From positions 62,001 to 126,000 of the forward strand of contig NZ_QLOE01000003.1 of NCBI RefSeq assembly GCF_003264935.1: a DNA stretch of 64,000 bases, given 5' to 3'. The first letter of the stretch is position 1. Every line of letters starts with the position of its first letter. The position numbers were made by a program, and so were the translations under genes. The notes beneath the pieces were generated by a model. That model made no database searches and was not told where the DNA came from. It saw only the letters and a program-made list of their open reading frames with translations. Of this stretch, positions 36,697 through 47,159 are shown one piece after another. Source of the DNA: Methanothermobacter tenebrarum. Its GTDB lineage: Archaea > Methanobacteriota > Methanobacteria > Methanobacteriales > DSM-23052.

Positions 36697-37185
36697 TTAG
36701 CCTCCTCCCATAACGCCACCAACGAGCAAGAGTATTGCTATAAGGAATCCGTAGATAGCCTGTGTTTCTGGCAGGGCTGTGAATATAATGCCCCTTGCGA
36801 ACATTTCAGGGTTTTCTGTGACTGCACCTACGCTACCTGCTGCTACGTTTCCCTGGGCTATAGCTGATCCGAAACCTGCAACTCCTATGGCTAAACCTGC
36901 GCTTAGGGCTATGATACCGCCTGTTGTACCAAGTGCTTTACCACCACCTAGGATTCCTGAGAATACTATAACTAATATTCCTATAAGGAATCCGTAGATA
37001 GCCTGTGTTTCTGGCAGGGCTGTGAATATAATGCCCCTTGCGAACATTTCAGGTTTTTCTGCAACTGCACCTACACTTGCAGCTGCTACGTTTCCCTGGG
37101 CTATAGCTGATCCGAAACCTGCGAATGCTATAGCTATTCCAGCTCCTACAGCTGCTAAAGCTGTTCCTAGTGTAATCTCAACCAT
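36697..37185 (-). CDS. atpK: A-type ATP synthase rotor proteolipid, two fused hairpins
   Basis: 162 aa, four transmembrane helices made of two c-subunit hairpins offset by 81 residues. Each hairpin keeps its ion-binding glutamate (Glu59 and Glu140 in LPETQAIYGF) and a helix-1 glutamine (Gln30 and Gln111 in GSAIAQGN). The Gln plus Glu-Thr combination matches the sodium-binding signature known in Na+-coupled rotors, so coupling to Na+ is likely (inference). The two halves share a perfect 73-bp DNA repeat (36738-36810 and 36981-37053) and a 39-bp one (36841-36879 and 37084-37122). Confidence 0.96.
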   Translation of the reverse strand: MVEITLGTALAAVGAGIAIAFAGFGSAIAQGNVAAASVGAVAEKPEMFARGIIFTALPETQAIYGFLIGILVIVFSGILGGGKALGTTGGIIALSAGLAIGVAGFGSAIAQGNVAAGSVGAVTENPEMFARGIIFTALPETQAIYGFLIAILLLVGGVMGGG

Positions 37186-39624: not shown

Positions 39625-40434
39625 TCATCCCCTCATTATCCTATCTGGTTTTCTCCCATGATATTCTATGTCCCCCAAGTTCAAAGTTTTCCTAAAGGGC
39701 TTCTCCTCTGCCTTTTCCTCATTTATATGGGCTATCAACCCCGGTAATCTTCCTATCATGAACATGCCTGTCCCAATCTCCCAATGGAATCCTAAATCTG
39801 ACAATATTGCCGCGTTAGCACCATCAATATTCATACTAATATTCTTTAACCGATTTAAAACCTTTTCTATTTCCAATGCTAACTGCGCATGTCTCCCTAT
39901 ACATTTATAATCCTTCGCTAATTCCAATATCCTAGCCGCCCTAGGATCTCTCCTATGATACCTATGACCAAAACCAGGTATCTTCTCATCCTTTTCTAGA
40001 TAATCATAGACGAGCTCCTTTGCAAGTTGAGAAACCTTACCATCATTCTTTAGAGTTTCTTGGAGGAGTTTCATACATTCTTGGATGGCCCCGGCATGTT
40101 CCTTCCCAAAGGCTAAAAGTCCAGCTGCTGCAGATGCATGTAAAGGAGAACCTGTGGATGCTGCTAGACGAGCGATCTGCGTGCTAGGAGGTGTAACACC
40201 ATGATCACAGAAGGATACGAGTATAGCGTCAAGCATCTTGGATTCATCCTTAGAAGGTAAATTACCCCTCAACAATAAGAAGACAACATCAGCAAATGAA
40301 ACATTCCCAATCAAATCTTCTTGGAAATATCCGCGCGTAACTATAAAATCTTCTTCAATCCAACTAATACTAGTCTTCCAGCGAGAGACGTTAACATCGA
40401 ATATTTTTTCAAGCGATTTTTTCTCTATTGCCAT
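39625..40434 (-). CDS. short citrate synthase-family protein (citryl-CoA lyase-like)
   Basis: About 269 aa, much shorter than classic citrate synthase (~370 aa), with GKEHAGAIQ, IPGFGHRYHRRDPRA and NIDGANAAILSDLGF covering the catalytic His, Arg and Asp regions. The short form with the GHRYH motif resembles citryl-CoA lyase/citrate-lyase-type enzymes. ATG 40434 has GAGGTG just upstream; the in-frame GTG at 40443 lies inside that site. It is the last gene of a four-gene operon with fumarase and a PrpD homologue. Confidence 0.85.
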   Translation of the reverse strand: MAIEKKSLEKIFDVNVSRWKTSISWIEEDFIVTRGYFQEDLIGNVSFADVVFLLLRGNLPSKDESKMLDAILVSFCDHGVTPPSTQIARLAASTGSPLHASAAAGLLAFGKEHAGAIQECMKLLQETLKNDGKVSQLAKELVYDYLEKDEKIPGFGHRYHRRDPRAARILELAKDYKCIGRHAQLALEIEKVLNRLKNISMNIDGANAAILSDLGFHWEIGTGMFMIGRLPGLIAHINEEKAEEKPFRKTLNLGDIEYHGRKPDRIMRG

Positions 40435-40444
40435 TGGTAGCACC

Positions 40445-41287
40445 TCATAATATTATAGTCGCCCTTCTTGGCTCTGCACAACAAGAGAGCCTCATGGAAA
40501 CTATCCTAACACCACTAGCTCTTTGGGGTCCGATCTTGACAAAGGAACCCAAAGCTGTTACGGATCCTCCAAGTCCTAAGCTACCTACACCAGTCCTATT
40601 AAGTGCCTCTGTTAGATATTCTTCGATTTCGGATTGCCTGTCAAGGTCCCCATTTGCCATGGCCTTAAGCATGAGGGAAGTGGCCTCAAAATGAGTTCTT
40701 CCAATGCCAATAATTGGGATGCAAGGGGTGCACCCTAACATTGGAGTCTCTGTTTTCATCCATGTTAGAACTTCTTCAAATAGTTTTCTGTTATCATGGC
40801 GATGGAAAACTCTATATGTACGGGCGCGTATTTCAGGGCCCCCACCTAGCATTAGAATATGAATCTTTACGCTATCTTCGTTTGTCGTGTCTATTAGAAA
40901 AGATGGGGGTATTACCATTGAAGGATCTTCATATAGGCCCCTGCTCTGCTCTATACGTTGAATATCATCTCCTTTCACTGCCATGGGCCTTCCGGGTAAT
41001 TCCTTTAATCCTTCTTTTATCCCTTTTTTGATCTGGACTAGAAGATCATTGGGTGGGGTGGTTTTTTCTCCGATTTCGATGATAACATGGGGGATCCCAG
41101 TATCGTCACAGAGCGGTCTCTTTTCTTTTCTTGCTATTTTTTCATTTTCTAGGATTAGTTTGAGCATCCAAGCTGCATTTTCATTCTCTTCTCTTTTAAG
41201 GGCTCTTTTATATGCTCTTCTAACGTCATTTGTATAACTTGTACTGGCTTTTATAAGGGCGTTCTTCACTCTTGTGACAAGGTTCAT
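40445..41287 (-). CDS. fumA: fumarate hydratase alpha-type subunit (class I fumarase/tartrate dehydratase)
   Basis: 280 aa, N-terminal catalytic part of an oxygen-sensitive [4Fe-4S] fumarase, hydrating fumarate to malate or the reverse. Cluster cysteines appear in RPLCDDTGIPH, MLGCTPCIPIIG and SCCAEPRR. The beta-type partner is not in this window and must be elsewhere. The ATG at 41287 overlaps the stop of the previous gene as ATGA. The longer open frame to 41422 lies inside that gene. Confidence 0.92.
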   Translation of the reverse strand: MNLVTRVKNALIKASTSYTNDVRRAYKRALKREENENAAWMLKLILENEKIARKEKRPLCDDTGIPHVIIEIGEKTTPPNDLLVQIKKGIKEGLKELPGRPMAVKGDDIQRIEQSRGLYEDPSMVIPPSFLIDTTNEDSVKIHILMLGGGPEIRARTYRVFHRHDNRKLFEEVLTWMKTETPMLGCTPCIPIIGIGRTHFEATSLMLKAMANGDLDRQSEIEEYLTEALNRTGVGSLGLGGSVTALGSFVKIGPQRASGVRIVSMRLSCCAEPRRATIIL

Positions 41288-42192
41288 TTGACCACCGGTA
41301 TTGCGAGGTCTTCGCTGCCCTTTGGGGAGGCTCGTGCTTCTGGATAGTATCTTTCTATCATTGATTGTACGAGTTGTACTTGTCTTATCCTTTCCTTTGC
41401 TTCTGTTTTTGTGGTTTCCCATCCGTGTTTTTTCGCGATTGAGCCTCCTGTTTTGAGGTAGACTGGGGCGGCGTAGCGTATCATATCTGGCACTTCATAG
41501 TGTCTTATAAAACCCCCGGAAGATTCTGGATTCTCTGTATGTAAATCTATTGGTATTTTTATGGTGTTTCTGATGGATGCTAGCATAGGTATTTGGAGGT
41601 CTCTCACAGGATTGAATGAGTCTGCTCCAATCTTTTCTAGTAGTAGGGCGGATGCTGGGTTGCCATGTCCACAATGTGCAGAGACTTTAAAGTGGAGATC
41701 CTTTGGGAGGTGGCCTGATTTTCTCATCTTGTTGAGCACCCATAGCATTCCTTCGTCATATACTACTATGCCTTTGACTCCGAGGTTAGCGGCTCTCTTA
41801 ACATCTTCTAGTGCGTATAATAGGTTTTCGTAGCCCCGGAGACGATATCCTATCCTTGAACCTTCTCTTGTTTTCGCGGTTGCACTTGTATCATAGGTTG
41901 CCCTGGGTCCTACGCTTAGGAATAATTCTATTCTTGCATCTGCTGCTATTTCGACCATTTCTTGGATTTCTTGGTCTGTGAGTAGCATTATACCCTTTGT
42001 TTGGGTTACTCGATGGATTGTCACATCATATTCATCAAGGGCGTTTATGAGTGCTCTGAGGGTTGAAGGTTTTTGTATACCTGGAACTTCGAAACGGTAC
42101 TGTGAACCATCCATAAACCTTTTCTTTGATTCAATGAGAGGATATCCGCTCTTTATACCAATATTTTCAAGGAATTTTCTATTTTTGTTCAT
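41284..42192 (-). CDS. uncharacterised protein, possible TIM barrel (U32-peptidase-like)
   Basis: 302 aa. The order of strands (TIHRVTQTKGIMLL, IELFLSVGPRA, VKGIVVYDEGML, LHFKVSAHCGHGNP, ADSFNPVRDLQIPML, IPIDLHTENPESSG) suggests a TIM barrel like the catalytic-like half of U32 proteins. Two histidines and a cysteine in SAHCGHGNP are conspicuous. It is coupled by ATGA overlaps to the PrpD-like gene before and fumA after, so it likely acts on the same small organic acids. A good ribosome site (GGGAGG) precedes the ATG. Confidence 0.7.
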   Translation of the reverse strand: MNKNRKFLENIGIKSGYPLIESKKRFMDGSQYRFEVPGIQKPSTLRALINALDEYDVTIHRVTQTKGIMLLTDQEIQEMVEIAADARIELFLSVGPRATYDTSATAKTREGSRIGYRLRGYENLLYALEDVKRAANLGVKGIVVYDEGMLWVLNKMRKSGHLPKDLHFKVSAHCGHGNPASALLLEKIGADSFNPVRDLQIPMLASIRNTIKIPIDLHTENPESSGGFIRHYEVPDMIRYAAPVYLKTGGSIAKKHGWETTKTEAKERIRQVQLVQSMIERYYPEARASPKGSEDLAIPVVK

Positions 42193-43508
42193 TGCTTGTT
42201 CCCTCCCAAGTCTAATTCGTCCATTAGCTCATCCATAGGGGTTGATTCCATCTCATTTAAAATCTTCAATTTTTTGACATCGTATTCACTGTTTAGCATT
42301 TTAAATTTTTTAAGGATATCATCTCTTTTAAGGGGATTCTCTGGCTCTCCACTTGGTAACATTGTTAAAGCTTCTGACTTTTCACCTTTTAATTTTAGGA
42401 TGACTTTTGATGGTCTTTTTTCAGGATAGAGAGAGTCCAGTTTTCTGTCAGTTTCGATCCTGATTTTTTTGGCGAGTTCACGTGCAAATTTGAAATCTTT
42501 TAGGTGCTCTAATCTTAAATCACCATTCAATAGAAATAATGCAAGGGAAACTGGTAGACTCTGTCTCAAAAATTCCATATTCTCTGGTTTGTAATTGTCA
42601 TGTTCTGCTGCCACTTTATATGTTCTGACTATCACTTCATCCACCATAGCTTCATCAACAGATTTCAACTTTAGAGAATTAAGTATCTTCGATGCTGAAT
42701 CAAGAGTAGAGTGAATATGTCTACAGACAGGATATTTTTTCATATAAACTTGTCTGATATGAAAATGGCCCAGCCCATCCTTTATATCATAACCTGAACT
42801 CATAACATTTAGGAATCCTTCATCACCTTCTAGTATGGTATCGGCTCCAGTGAAACCTTCCCTGGCAAGGAGGGCTGATAATATTCCGGATTGGGCTGCT
42901 CTTCCAGCATGCAAATGTTTTCCCATGCTACCTTTATGATCTGATTCAAGAAGACCCGCAGCTTGAGTGCCGGCCAATCCCAGGCAATTTAATGTTTCTT
43001 CTTTGTTCAAATCAAGAATTTTTGCACTGGCTGCTGCAGCTCCAATGGTTCCACATGTGCCTGTAGAATGAAAACCCATGTTACGATGATGTGGGTTTAT
43101 CATAATCCCTAGGCTTAGACATATTTCATAGCCAATTATAATAGATGTGAGAAATTCTTTTCCTTTGACCTTTTCTTTTTCTGCTAATGCAAGCGCTGCT
43201 GGTATGACAGATGCTCCAGGGTGCAAGTGGGCTATTCTATGGCCATCATCCAAGTCAAGGCTATGGGCAAATATACCATTGACTAGGCTTGCATTTAATG
43301 GGTCTCCATGACCATGGCCTATAATAGTCGCTTTACCAAGAGTAGGTTGGAGTGCTTTTAGCGCGGAAATTCCACTTTTTTCATTTGATCCTCTTAAAGA
43401 GACTCCGAGAAAATCCATGAAACATAATCTGGCTTTTTCTGTAACATCAGATGGTATATCCTCATATTTTAATGATATTATAAAATCAGCGAATTTTTTT
43501 GTTATCAT
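42189..43508 (-). CDS. MmgE/PrpD family protein
   Basis: About 439 aa, related to 2-methylcitrate dehydratase and cis-aconitate decarboxylase, which are cofactor-free enzymes acting on tricarboxylates. Seen are ARLCFMDFLGVSLRG, HSLDLDDGHRIAHLHPGASVIPAALALAE, and STGTCGTIGAAAASAKIL. ATG 43508 fits the family N-terminus; a longer frame to 43580 adds non-conserved residues. First gene of the operon with the TIM-barrel protein, fumA and the citrate-synthase-like gene. Confidence 0.88.
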   Translation of the reverse strand: MITKKFADFIISLKYEDIPSDVTEKARLCFMDFLGVSLRGSNEKSGISALKALQPTLGKATIIGHGHGDPLNASLVNGIFAHSLDLDDGHRIAHLHPGASVIPAALALAEKEKVKGKEFLTSIIIGYEICLSLGIMINPHHRNMGFHSTGTCGTIGAAAASAKILDLNKEETLNCLGLAGTQAAGLLESDHKGSMGKHLHAGRAAQSGILSALLAREGFTGADTILEGDEGFLNVMSSGYDIKDGLGHFHIRQVYMKKYPVCRHIHSTLDSASKILNSLKLKSVDEAMVDEVIVRTYKVAAEHDNYKPENMEFLRQSLPVSLALFLLNGDLRLEHLKDFKFARELAKKIRIETDRKLDSLYPEKRPSKVILKLKGEKSEALTMLPSGEPENPLKRDDILKKFKMLNSEYDVKKLKILNEMESTPMDELMDELDLGGNKQ

Positions 43509-45354: not shown

Positions 45355-45888
45355 TTATGTTTTTTTGAGAATTTCGTCGGGTTTTAGTATGCTGATGCCT
45401 GTGTTATCCCCTACTACTTCTATTTGTATTATCCATTTTGGATTGTTATCATCCCTTTCAAGGCTTAATTTATCCATTAGAAGCTCTGAAAGGTCTTCTG
45501 TTATCTCATCTGGCGTTTTTATATACTTTCTGCCTCTGAGGTCGCATATGACTTTGAATGAGTCTCCAGGTTGGGTTTTCTCTTTTGCAAGTGCAATTGC
45601 TTTTTCCAAGATGCTGTCTTTTCTTGTTTTAACCACCACTTCTATGGGCACTACCTTTGATATTACTGTTGTGGGTGAATTTTCAAGAATCTTCACAGCT
45701 TCCCTAGGATCCATTGCAAGATCTACCAAGATTACATTAGGGAACTGGCAATCTTTAATGTTGAGTGGAGATTCATAATCTTGTAGTGCGAGTTCAAGTT
45801 CTTCCATCCCTACAAGTTCCTCGCCGCCAACTCCACCTTTCTGACCGCACACGGTTACAAGAAGGTTAAAATATTCTGGTATTTTCAT
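45355..45888 (-). CDS. THUMP-domain RNA-binding protein
   Basis: 177 aa. The THUMP core is clear at about residues 85-165: VVVKTRKDSILEKAIALAKEKTQPGDSFKVICDLRGRKYIKTPDEI. THUMP domains present the acceptor end of tRNA to modification enzymes; TAN1-like stand-alone forms help a partner acetylate C12. The partner is not in this window. It overlaps the upstream DUF1284 gene by 23 bp. Confidence 0.87.
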   Translation of the reverse strand: MKIPEYFNLLVTVCGQKGGVGGEELVGMEELELALQDYESPLNIKDCQFPNVILVDLAMDPREAVKILENSPTTVISKVVPIEVVVKTRKDSILEKAIALAKEKTQPGDSFKVICDLRGRKYIKTPDEITEDLSELLMDKLSLERDDNNPKWIIQIEVVGDNTGISILKPDEILKKT

Positions 45889-46357
45889 TTTCTATCACTC
45901 CATGCAAAATTCTTAAAAAAATATCTTCTATGAGTTTTTCTTTTTGGCTAAGGTAAAATTTGCATTTGTTGATCCATTGACAAGCGCCACAGATCTCATC
46001 CAAGATTTTGAAATTTATCTTTTCATAAATTAAAGAACGCAATTCATTGTAACATCTAGTTTCTCTCATATTGAGATTCAGGTGTCTAATTAGCCTCTGA
46101 TCCTTGGCCTTTAGGTTTTCATCCCCATCACATTTGCTTTTATTGGGACACATTTTACAAATTTCATCAGTTTCACTTATTATTGTAACTGGGATCCTAG
46201 GATACTCTTTTAGAATTCTGATGATATTTCGGAGGTTTTCTGTGAAAATCTTATCATATCCATACCCTTGGAATCCCTCCATACATAGAAGATGGTGTGC
46301 TCTTATCTGAAGTTCGGGGCAATCACCATCCTGTTTTGATGTCAACTTCTTCACCAT
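45866..46357 (-). CDS. DUF1284 cysteine-rich protein
   Basis: 163 aa with RAHHLLCMEGFQGYGY, the family signature, and four further cysteine pairs or singles (EICKMCPNKSKC, CGACQWINKCKFY) suggesting an iron-sulfur or zinc protein. Its start lies within the 3' end of bioY (35 bp overlap) and its end within the THUMP gene. Function unknown. Confidence 0.83.
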   Translation of the reverse strand: MVKKLTSKQDGDCPELQIRAHHLLCMEGFQGYGYDKIFTENLRNIIRILKEYPRIPVTIISETDEICKMCPNKSKCDGDENLKAKDQRLIRHLNLNMRETRCYNELRSLIYEKINFKILDEICGACQWINKCKFYLSQKEKLIEDIFLRILHGVIENENTRIF

Positions 46358-46964
46358 AGGGTTCCTTGGGTGTTATAGCCTTTGTGAGTGCGGAAGCTCC
46401 CATAATTTTGAATATATCCCCGACGATGAATGGTAGAAGACCCATGACAAGGAGCTCCCATATTGTTGGAATGACTCCCTTTACTGTGTACACCCAGAAA
46501 CCTAGAACGAGGAGTCCGGGTACATATATTAGGATGAAGTTTGCAAAGAGCATTAGACCAAACATCGGGATGAAATTCCGAGACTTTACGTATTTGTCAA
46601 CGAAGTGGCCTAGGAAAAGCGCTGCTATTATAAAACCTATCAAGTATCCTCCACTAGCCCCCAGTAGGATGCTGTAACCGCCTTTCATTCCTGCGAACCA
46701 TGGTATTCCGCTGATGCCCAATAATACATAGAGTAGTTGGCTGAAACCACCCCAATATCTTCCCAGGAGTATTCCCGAAATTAGAACAGAGAATGTTTGG
46801 GCTGTTATGGGTACTGGTGTCCATGGGAGTGGGATTACAATCTGGGCCATTAAACCTGTTAGACATGCCATGAAAAATGCCATGATAGATTTATTAACGA
46901 AGGATTGGCTGTTCCTCCATCTGAATAACATGTAACGTTTCCTGTAATAATTTTCCAAGTTCAC
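46323..46964 (-). CDS. bioY: biotin transporter substrate-binding subunit
   Basis: 213-214 aa, about six membrane helices, S component of an ECF-type or solitary biotin transporter. The family motif region MAQIVIPLPWTPVPITAQTFSVLISGILLG and the GAxGGYLIGF-like segment are present. GTG 46964 is taken as the start because GGAGG lies 8 bp upstream; a longer open frame reaches 47042. No EcfA/EcfT genes are adjacent. Biotin would serve pyruvate carboxylase. Confidence 0.92.
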   Translation of the reverse strand: MNLENYYRKRYMLFRWRNSQSFVNKSIMAFFMACLTGLMAQIVIPLPWTPVPITAQTFSVLISGILLGRYWGGFSQLLYVLLGISGIPWFAGMKGGYSILLGASGGYLIGFIIAALFLGHFVDKYVKSRNFIPMFGLMLFANFILIYVPGLLVLGFWVYTVKGVIPTIWELLVMGLLPFIVGDIFKIMGASALTKAITPKEPYGEEVDIKTGW

Positions 46965-47159
46965 GTTAAGTCCTCCAATGGGAACTGTCAAGTGATCTAT
47001 TTCATGATTAGCTTTTATAAAATTTTTCCCCCCATATTTCATGAAATTTAACCTCTCCCATCCAACAAGTGTAATAGTATTATATAACTCGAGTATGAAA
47101 TCTTTCTCAATGTTTCTGCCCTTATCGGAAATTTTATATAGGATGTGTGTAGGGAGATG
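46965..47159. other. gap upstream of bioY
   Basis: AT-rich. It contains the bioY ribosome site and, on the + strand, a TATA-like ATTTTATATA at 47131-47140 in front of the GC-rich element that follows. No biotin-operon palindrome recognised. Confidence 0.35.

Follow-up and report, generated by a model that had tools for sequence, protein, structure and literature searches.

The locus described here, a row of four genes at positions 39625-43508 of a 64,000-nucleotide stretch of the Methanothermobacter tenebrarum genome (the window), can be compared with three known systems. The methylcitrate cycle shares with the window an operon that unites enzymes of the citrate synthase family and the PrpD superfamily with an Fe-S hydratase and a TIM barrel. 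However, the PrpD-like protein of the window stays below the scores of the PrpD equivalogs, its hydratase belongs to the split fumarase class, its citrate synthase is a short enzyme of the citryl-CoA-lyase type (CCL), and its TIM barrel, called X below, is not distinguished as a lyase of the phosphoenolpyruvate-mutase superfamily. The second system is the citryl-CoA lyase of the reductive tricarboxylic acid (TCA) cycle (structure 6hxp). CCL resembles this enzyme (E 4.8e-65), passes the model NF004866 and has the His/His/Asp residues invariant among orthologues, but it is accompanied here by a dehydratase, a hydratase and X. The third is the pathway to methanofuran, the cofactor that takes up CO2 first in biological methanogenesis, of which the core genes MfnA-F are known. 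According to PMC11365854, MfnA-F, as in Methanocaldococcus jannaschii, build the aminomethylfuran-tyramine-glutamate core. The set in the window touches this pathway through a second hydratase beta subunit, whose gene lies close to mfnA in most of the genera compared, but it would build the distal tetracarboxylate and not the core. We suggest, with a probability of about one half, that the operon is the core of the biosynthesis of a C10 tetracarboxylate with a branched skeleton, which is most likely 1,3,4,6-hexanetetracarboxylic acid (HTCA), the distal tail of methanofuran in Methanobacteria and also an abundant free solute of Methanothermobacter.

The minus strand of this region is filled by four consecutive genes, encoding the PrpD-superfamily protein, X, the Fe-S hydratase alpha subunit and CCL, and the reading frames were checked (Table 1). 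The sequence-only reading had described four coupled genes here, and we confirmed that they lie on the same strand, with ATGA overlaps at the PrpD/X and X/hydratase alpha junctions and with the CCL start 10 bp past the stop of hydratase alpha. A longer open reading frame listed for hydratase alpha, starting from 41422, would run inside X. The set is flanked upstream by a DUF498 gene and downstream by the aha A-type ATPase operon, the first gene of which begins 115 bp beyond CCL. When the four proteins were scanned against Pfam, MmgE_PrpD_N/C, Fumerase and Citrate_synt were found far above their cut-offs and X had no match. The family guesses made from the letters alone were right for the PrpD superfamily, the barrel, the Fe-S hydratase and the short citrate synthase, except that the hydratase gene supplies just an alpha subunit.

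The four genes are inherited together as a unit. First, the order PrpD-X-Fum-CCL on one strand is held in 34 of the 35 archaeal loci that are flanked on either side by 5 kb or more and in 59/71 of all archaeal loci. The former count excludes 36 loci in which one flank is shorter than 5 kb, and the single exception among the well-flanked loci (L064; genomes, loci and genera are denoted by codes in G, L and g) keeps X and CCL. Of the excluded loci, L099 of an M. filiformis-like genome is also a genuine exception. Within the first 20 loci, the four genes are complete in 16, and the remainder are contig ends or L033. Second, X is present in 50/60 relatives and in 128 of the 151 genomes of the phylum set, which contains only this class. 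It occurs in 128/131 genomes outside genus g5 and in 0/20 of g5, three of the g5 misses having been placed from other scans, so that the 23 genomes without X are the 20 of g5 and three that are 67-72% complete. When only genomes of 90% completeness or more and no more than 5% contamination are considered, X is found in 78/91, namely 78/78 outside g5 and 0/13 in g5. Third, proteins of the PrpD (PF03972) and citrate synthase (PF00285) families were found in 5/5 sampled carriers and in 0/10 sampled g5 genomes. Genus g5 is most likely Methanosphaera. Since the order is conserved across the class and X is present in 128/151 genomes, the conservation of the set is beyond what chance would give. The four genes very probably belong to one pathway, and their joint conservation and joint loss lend good support to the earlier proposal of a short, not yet described pathway, here one of polycarboxylates.

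A reading as separate 2-oxoglutarate and fumarate enzymes, brought together by chance or through the adjacent ATPase operon, would agree with the finding of ahaH close to the set in 33/35 well-flanked archaeal loci. The same order is, however, conserved without aha genes in a 19-kb stretch of the Methanothermus-like genome G060, the whole set is jointly absent in g5, and the same combination of proteins recurs in bacteria, so that this reading is largely refuted by the co-loss and appears most improbable. Mere hitch-hiking with the ATPase genes was dropped, because G060 keeps the set without them.

The hydratase gene of the set encodes the alpha subunit alone, and a second beta subunit is encoded far from the cluster. 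The alpha subunit passes TIGR00722 (TtdA/FumA alpha domain; 139.3 against 100.65 bits) and stays below the fumarate hydratase equivalog NF004885 (125.5 against 276 bits). Its C60, C186 and C269, which we take to be the cluster ligands by analogy with FumA, are unchanged in 20/20 module rows, a count that excludes the hydratases of L156 and L157 and eight canonical rows. Two Fum alphas and two Fum betas were found in 5/5 sampled carriers and one of each in 3/3 g5 genomes. Using a model built from five second betas, we found a match above 200 bits in 121/131 genomes outside g5 and in 0/20 of g5; canonical Fum betas match this model too, but with lower scores (about 72-81 bits in the rows displayed), by which they were set apart. 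The ten genomes outside g5 without a second beta are 62-90% complete. In one genome, G036, two high-scoring copies of the second beta were seen (C4:249898-250386 and C1:32258-32746).

In the trees, the cluster alphas are united at 100/100 and nested with 11 module alphas from bacteria (100/100), and the second betas, united at 97/94, are joined by 10 module betas from bacteria (100/99). Module alphas and betas are split from the canonical subunits at 100/100 and 100/99, respectively, and the L156 and L157 hydratases fell on the canonical side. Because the alpha and beta genes are adjacent in the 11 bacterial loci, the archaeal alpha and the second beta look like one enzyme, probably with separated genes, and by its sequence the second beta is a dedicated paralogue, not the beta of the housekeeping fumarase. 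The sequence-only reading had named a fumarase working only with a remote beta, together with a lack of co-conservation of the other genes, as evidence that would count against it. The first of these holds in part, in that a remote beta exists as a dedicated paralogue; the second does not hold, as the remaining genes are conserved together.

The second beta adjoins mfnA, the gene for the methanofuran tyrosine decarboxylase, which was identified in the window's own genome (G000, 1.47 Mb) by TIGR03812 with 552 against 299 bits. When we counted this linkage over the 111 genomes in which a second beta and an mfnA row of nearly full length were both present, the two genes were at most 2 kb apart in 40 genomes from 14 of the 19 genera. 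Ten further genomes with a second beta and a weak, partial or missing mfnA row were excluded, and genomes outside the genus list were assigned to g4 by default and then checked. In 39 of the 40 linked genomes, the beta lies on the same strand downstream of mfnA (13 genera with the same strand). As measured by matched ranges, the two genes are touching in G000 and two sister genomes, and the gap is 11 bp in G060 and 30-124 bp in genus g2, which includes G016. In G019 of g5, the order rpl10e, ppsA, mfnA is kept, as judged by eye, and the gene after mfnA is something other than a beta. The linkage points to methanofuran and a tetracarboxylate instead of an appendix of the reductive TCA cycle. A tie to the incomplete form of that cycle, which had been proposed from the letters alone, is not favoured: the canonical fumarase alpha/beta pair is encoded separately and is kept in 3/3 of the g5 genomes looked at, from which the set is missing entirely.

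HTCA is identical with 1,3,4,6-tetracarboxyhexane, and its skeleton consists of two glutarate units joined at their alpha carbons. The tetracarboxylate tail is typical of Methanobacteriales, and a hydroxylated form of it occurs in Methanobrevibacter smithii. To our knowledge, the methanofurans of Methanosarcina and Methanococcales, including those of M. acetivorans and M. jannaschii, carry glutamates and no HTCA, and M. jannaschii is without the distal tetracarboxylate. PrpD had no match in these two species, our only two control methanogens, and the set is present in Methanobacteria. According to PMC1224877, 1,3,4,6-tetracarboxyhexane is a methanofuran component and a major solute of the Marburg strain, and in PMC11365854 methanofurans a-e are described as sharing a common core, made by MfnA-F, and carrying one of five different side chains. 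A listing from 2011, which precedes MfnB-F, gives MfnA and an estimated seven unknown proteins for methanofuran (PMC3087415). In the open literature searched, which left out most subscription papers, no assignment of genes for the tetracarboxylate tail, or of these genes to methanofuran, was found. On the sequence evidence, the chances appear about even that the set serves methanofuran or its acid.

The PrpD-like protein is a member of the MmgE/PrpD superfamily, with 249.7 bits to PF03972 and 90.7 bits to PF19305 (gathering score 32.1). The earlier description as a tricarboxylate dehydratase-like protein holds at the level of the superfamily and fails for 2-methylcitrate dehydratase, since the protein is far below the cut-offs of both equivalog models (TIGR02330, 28.1 against 458 bits; NF042438, 32.5 against 950 bits). 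Its closest solved relatives are IRG1 of B. subtilis, with an E value of 2.7e-39, and IDS-epimerase (3.6e-34); it is distant from the 2-methylcitrate dehydratases (E 2.3e-6). Residues D87, D88, H96, H147, K197 and Y255 are unchanged in 32/32 aligned rows. We propose that this protein may be a dehydratase of a branched hydroxy-polycarboxylate. CCL scores 376 bits against the cut-off of 245 bits of NF004866, and 6hxp is its nearest solved structure. Its H113, H157 and D204, to which we assign a catalytic role by analogy with citrate synthase, are unchanged in 18/18 rows, and CCL is proposed as a putative Claisen-type condensing enzyme. A second CCL-like gene, 65% identical to the cluster CCL and without the other three genes alongside, was seen at L183:4263-5126 (G000:C4). 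Two CCL-like genes are present in the carriers G000 and G016, and in G060, G009 and G033 the cluster CCL is the sole PF00285 protein found.

These assignments bear on the possibility that the set belongs to central carbon metabolism, as a route that cleaves citrate or resembles the methylcitrate cycle and consists of CCL, PrpD, the Fe-S hydratase and X as a TIM-barrel lyase. The four enzyme types do pair one-to-one with PrpC, PrpD, AcnD/AcnB and PrpB, CCL is nearest to a citryl-CoA lyase, and among the bacterial loci, L155 contains CitDEF-like genes (by eye) and L156 malic enzyme together with a transporter of the tricarboxylate type (the latter by eye). On the other hand, the PrpD-like protein is under both equivalog cut-offs, the hydratase is of the fumarase class and not an aconitase, PF00285 is absent altogether from 10/10 sampled g5 genomes, and the beta is tied to mfnA. 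We consider such a route quite unlikely.

X has no family at the gathering level in Pfam and no NCBIfam match, and a sequence search of the PDB gave a single match at E 2.5. Its structural model (pLDDT 87.8, pTM 0.87) is a TIM barrel, with Z scores of about 15 to CutC and the U32 protein MK0906, 14.2 to MfnB (4rc1) and 13-14.5 to class II aldolases. The 2-methylisocitrate lyase-type barrel 1xg3 was at Foldseek rank 41 with a TM-score of 0.45 and was not set apart from other barrels. Ten Arg and five His residues are invariant across 25 archaeal and bacterial rows, in keeping with the binding of several carboxylates by such a protein. X is proposed as a candidate C-C bond-forming or -rearranging enzyme acting on polycarboxylates. 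A His-Cys-Gly-His motif had been pointed out in X, but over 20 archaeal rows its Cys is C/T/A and its second His is H/A/C/V, with only H173 and G175 invariant; as the motif is not conserved, a function for it was dropped.

Two further assignments of X were tried and rejected. For a U32 peptidase, PF01136 scores 14.4 against 22.4 bits, the alignment is without an invariant or near-invariant Cys, and the U32 structure 5d88 (Z 14.9) is no closer than many TIM barrels; for BKACE, the score is below the threshold (13.7 against 24.8 bits). A distant plasmid homologue, 32% identical, passes the U32 model at 25.3 bits, and 2/4 plasmid matches of X are annotated 'U32 family peptidase', a label which the scores of the window X do not bear out. 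One plasmid homologue (L142:14953-15891; Enterobacter chuandaensis plasmid NZ_CP097174.1; 32% identity; annotated as U32 peptidase) lies in an apparent biosynthetic cluster with an aminotransferase, a phosphotransferase, two iron-containing redox enzymes and a nucleotidyltransferase. Another (L143:12001-12936; Thermomicrobium roseum plasmid; 42% identity) is near a mandelate racemase-type enzyme and sugar-transport genes. No X was found in phages, and of 16 pattern matches in viral contigs 0 were confirmed.

If the set makes HTCA, CCL would condense an acyl-CoA with 2-oxoglutarate at its keto group, the choice of acyl-CoA being a guess, and the PrpD-type enzyme would dehydrate the resulting citrate-like tertiary alcohol. 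X would then form or rearrange a second C-C bond, the split Fe-S hydratase, with alpha in the operon and beta beside mfnA, would dehydrate a second hydroxy acid, and unlinked reductases would saturate the double bonds; this order of steps is likewise a guess. Because the skeleton is made of two glutarate units joined at the alpha carbons, it fits a condensation at the 2-oxoglutarate keto carbon, with dehydration and reduction as the next steps. Building a saturated tetracarboxylate onto 2-oxoglutarate would take two enzymes that form bonds and two that remove water, which is what the set would supply.

A similar module is present in bacteria. In a scan of named genomes, of which the best 80 of 416 loci were used, nine loci were titled Firmicutes (Eubacterium, Solobacterium, Tissierella and others), and 9/9 of these have X together with both Fum subunits and a C-C lyase of the PF15617 type. 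PrpD is found in 7/9, and the two loci without it are short upstream. The proteins of this module resemble those of the window in X (62-65% identity), Fum alpha (46-51%) and Fum beta (44-53%), but the PF15617-type lyase replaces CCL, beta is adjacent to alpha, the context in the loci inspected is that of polysaccharides, and PrpD is only 28-37% identical. The Firmicutes C-C lyases are 53-58% identical to that of L109 (PF15617). CCL, the PF15617-type lyase and perhaps citrate lyase seem to occupy the same place in the module. Among the neighbours, Pfam identified a glycosyltransferase in L089 and an ATP-grasp protein in L109, and RmlA- and DegT-like proteins were recognized by eye. In some Firmicutes, a thiamine-diphosphate enzyme (TPP_enzyme_N/C in L114) and an aldo/keto reductase lie between PrpD and X (L112:6825-7955, L114:6822-7997).

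These loci suggest another reading, in which the product of the module is another branched acid with three or four carboxylates, used for example on the cell surface, and the linkage to mfnA reflects only regulation or ancestral order. In its favour, X, alpha, beta and a PF15617-like C-C lyase stand together, mostly with PrpD, beside glycosyltransferase, acetyltransferase-like, nucleotidyltransferase-like and ATP-grasp genes in the bacterial loci inspected (partly by eye). We regard it as rather unlikely: in the archaea, the second beta is beside mfnA in most genera, and no glycosyltransferase was seen by eye beside the set in the two archaeal loci inspected, the window and L159.

Here, we need to consider several observations that weigh against HTCA as the product. 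The breadth of X is the main argument against a reading restricted to HTCA, since its carriers include bacteria not known for methanofuran: X is present in 8/291 genomes of one bacterial class (two of them weak, and the X-bearing centre genome included), bacterial X lies within a surface-polysaccharide neighbourhood (L109), and two loci are apparently catabolic, L155 with CitDEF-like genes and an FAD-linked oxidase (by eye) and L156, where Pfam shows malic enzyme and PrpD and a dehydrogenase and a transporter of the tricarboxylate type were recognized by eye; the hydratase subunits of L156 are of the canonical type. Among other archaea, PrpD-family matches were found in H. volcanii and S. acidocaldarius. 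The fold of X gave only generic TIM barrels by Foldseek and VIA-align, none standing out, and its chemistry cannot be assigned from them. Regarding mfnA, the linkage is absent in g4 (Methanobrevibacter-like; 0/56, with printed same-contig distances of 55 to 105 kb) as well as in g3, g10, g16 and g17, and beta and mfnA are on different contigs in 51/111 genomes. Four genomes that are 81-94% complete (G082, G090, G097, G104) have X and the second beta and no good mfnA match, and MfnA might serve beta-alanine synthesis, too. In the M. thermautotrophicus-like G016, the frame of the second beta stops about 29 residues early, which is either real or a sequencing error, and in the M. filiformis-like G058 (L033, L099) X is without the other three genes beside it, with no Fum or CCL in the 8 kb downstream. 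Finally, g5 retains mfnA in 19/20 genomes (about 50% identity) and formyltransferase in 10/10 sampled, and presumably still makes some methanofuran; therefore it lacks the set but not methanofuran-dependent genes generally. Methanosphaera is reported to keep the tetrahydromethanopterin branch for anabolism and to lack molybdopterin synthesis (PMC9723798), and M. stadtmanae to encode a formylmethanofuran dehydrogenase (PMC3439257).

The bacterial breadth fits a portable polycarboxylate module. Returning to methanofuran, we tentatively suggest that the set and the second beta may be the missing pathway to the HTCA tail, with X founding a new TIM-barrel family, that the module was traded with Firmicutes, where it would make surface polycarboxylates, and that Methanosphaera may have lost it on ceasing to reduce CO2 to methane. 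If true, this would account for an abundant intracellular acid and provide the first function for an unassigned TIM-barrel family. The finding names five genes and one naturally lacking genus as a control.

Table 1. Genes of the set and the proposed distant partner subunit.
Gene	Product	Coordinates	Strand	Evidence or remark
PrpD	MmgE/PrpD-superfamily protein, dehydratase/epimerase/decarboxylase-type, 439 aa	42189..43508	-	ATG at 43508; PF03972, PF19305
X	TIM-barrel enzyme, 302 aa	41284..42192	-	no gathering-level Pfam, no NCBIfam match
Fe-S hydratase alpha	class I, paralogue of housekeeping fumarase alpha, 280 aa	40445..41287	-	PF05681 186.6 bits
CCL	citryl-CoA-lyase-type short citrate synthase, 269 aa	39625..40434	-	NF004866 376 bits
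Second Fum beta	proposed partner of cluster alpha	G000:C2:34939-35427		beside mfnA

Two other features of the window were observed around the set. At 36697-37185, the ATPase proteolipid reading frame has two repeated halves, like duplicated K subunits, and upstream of the set, at 45355-47042, THUMP-domain, DUF1284 and BioY genes stand in an overlapping row.

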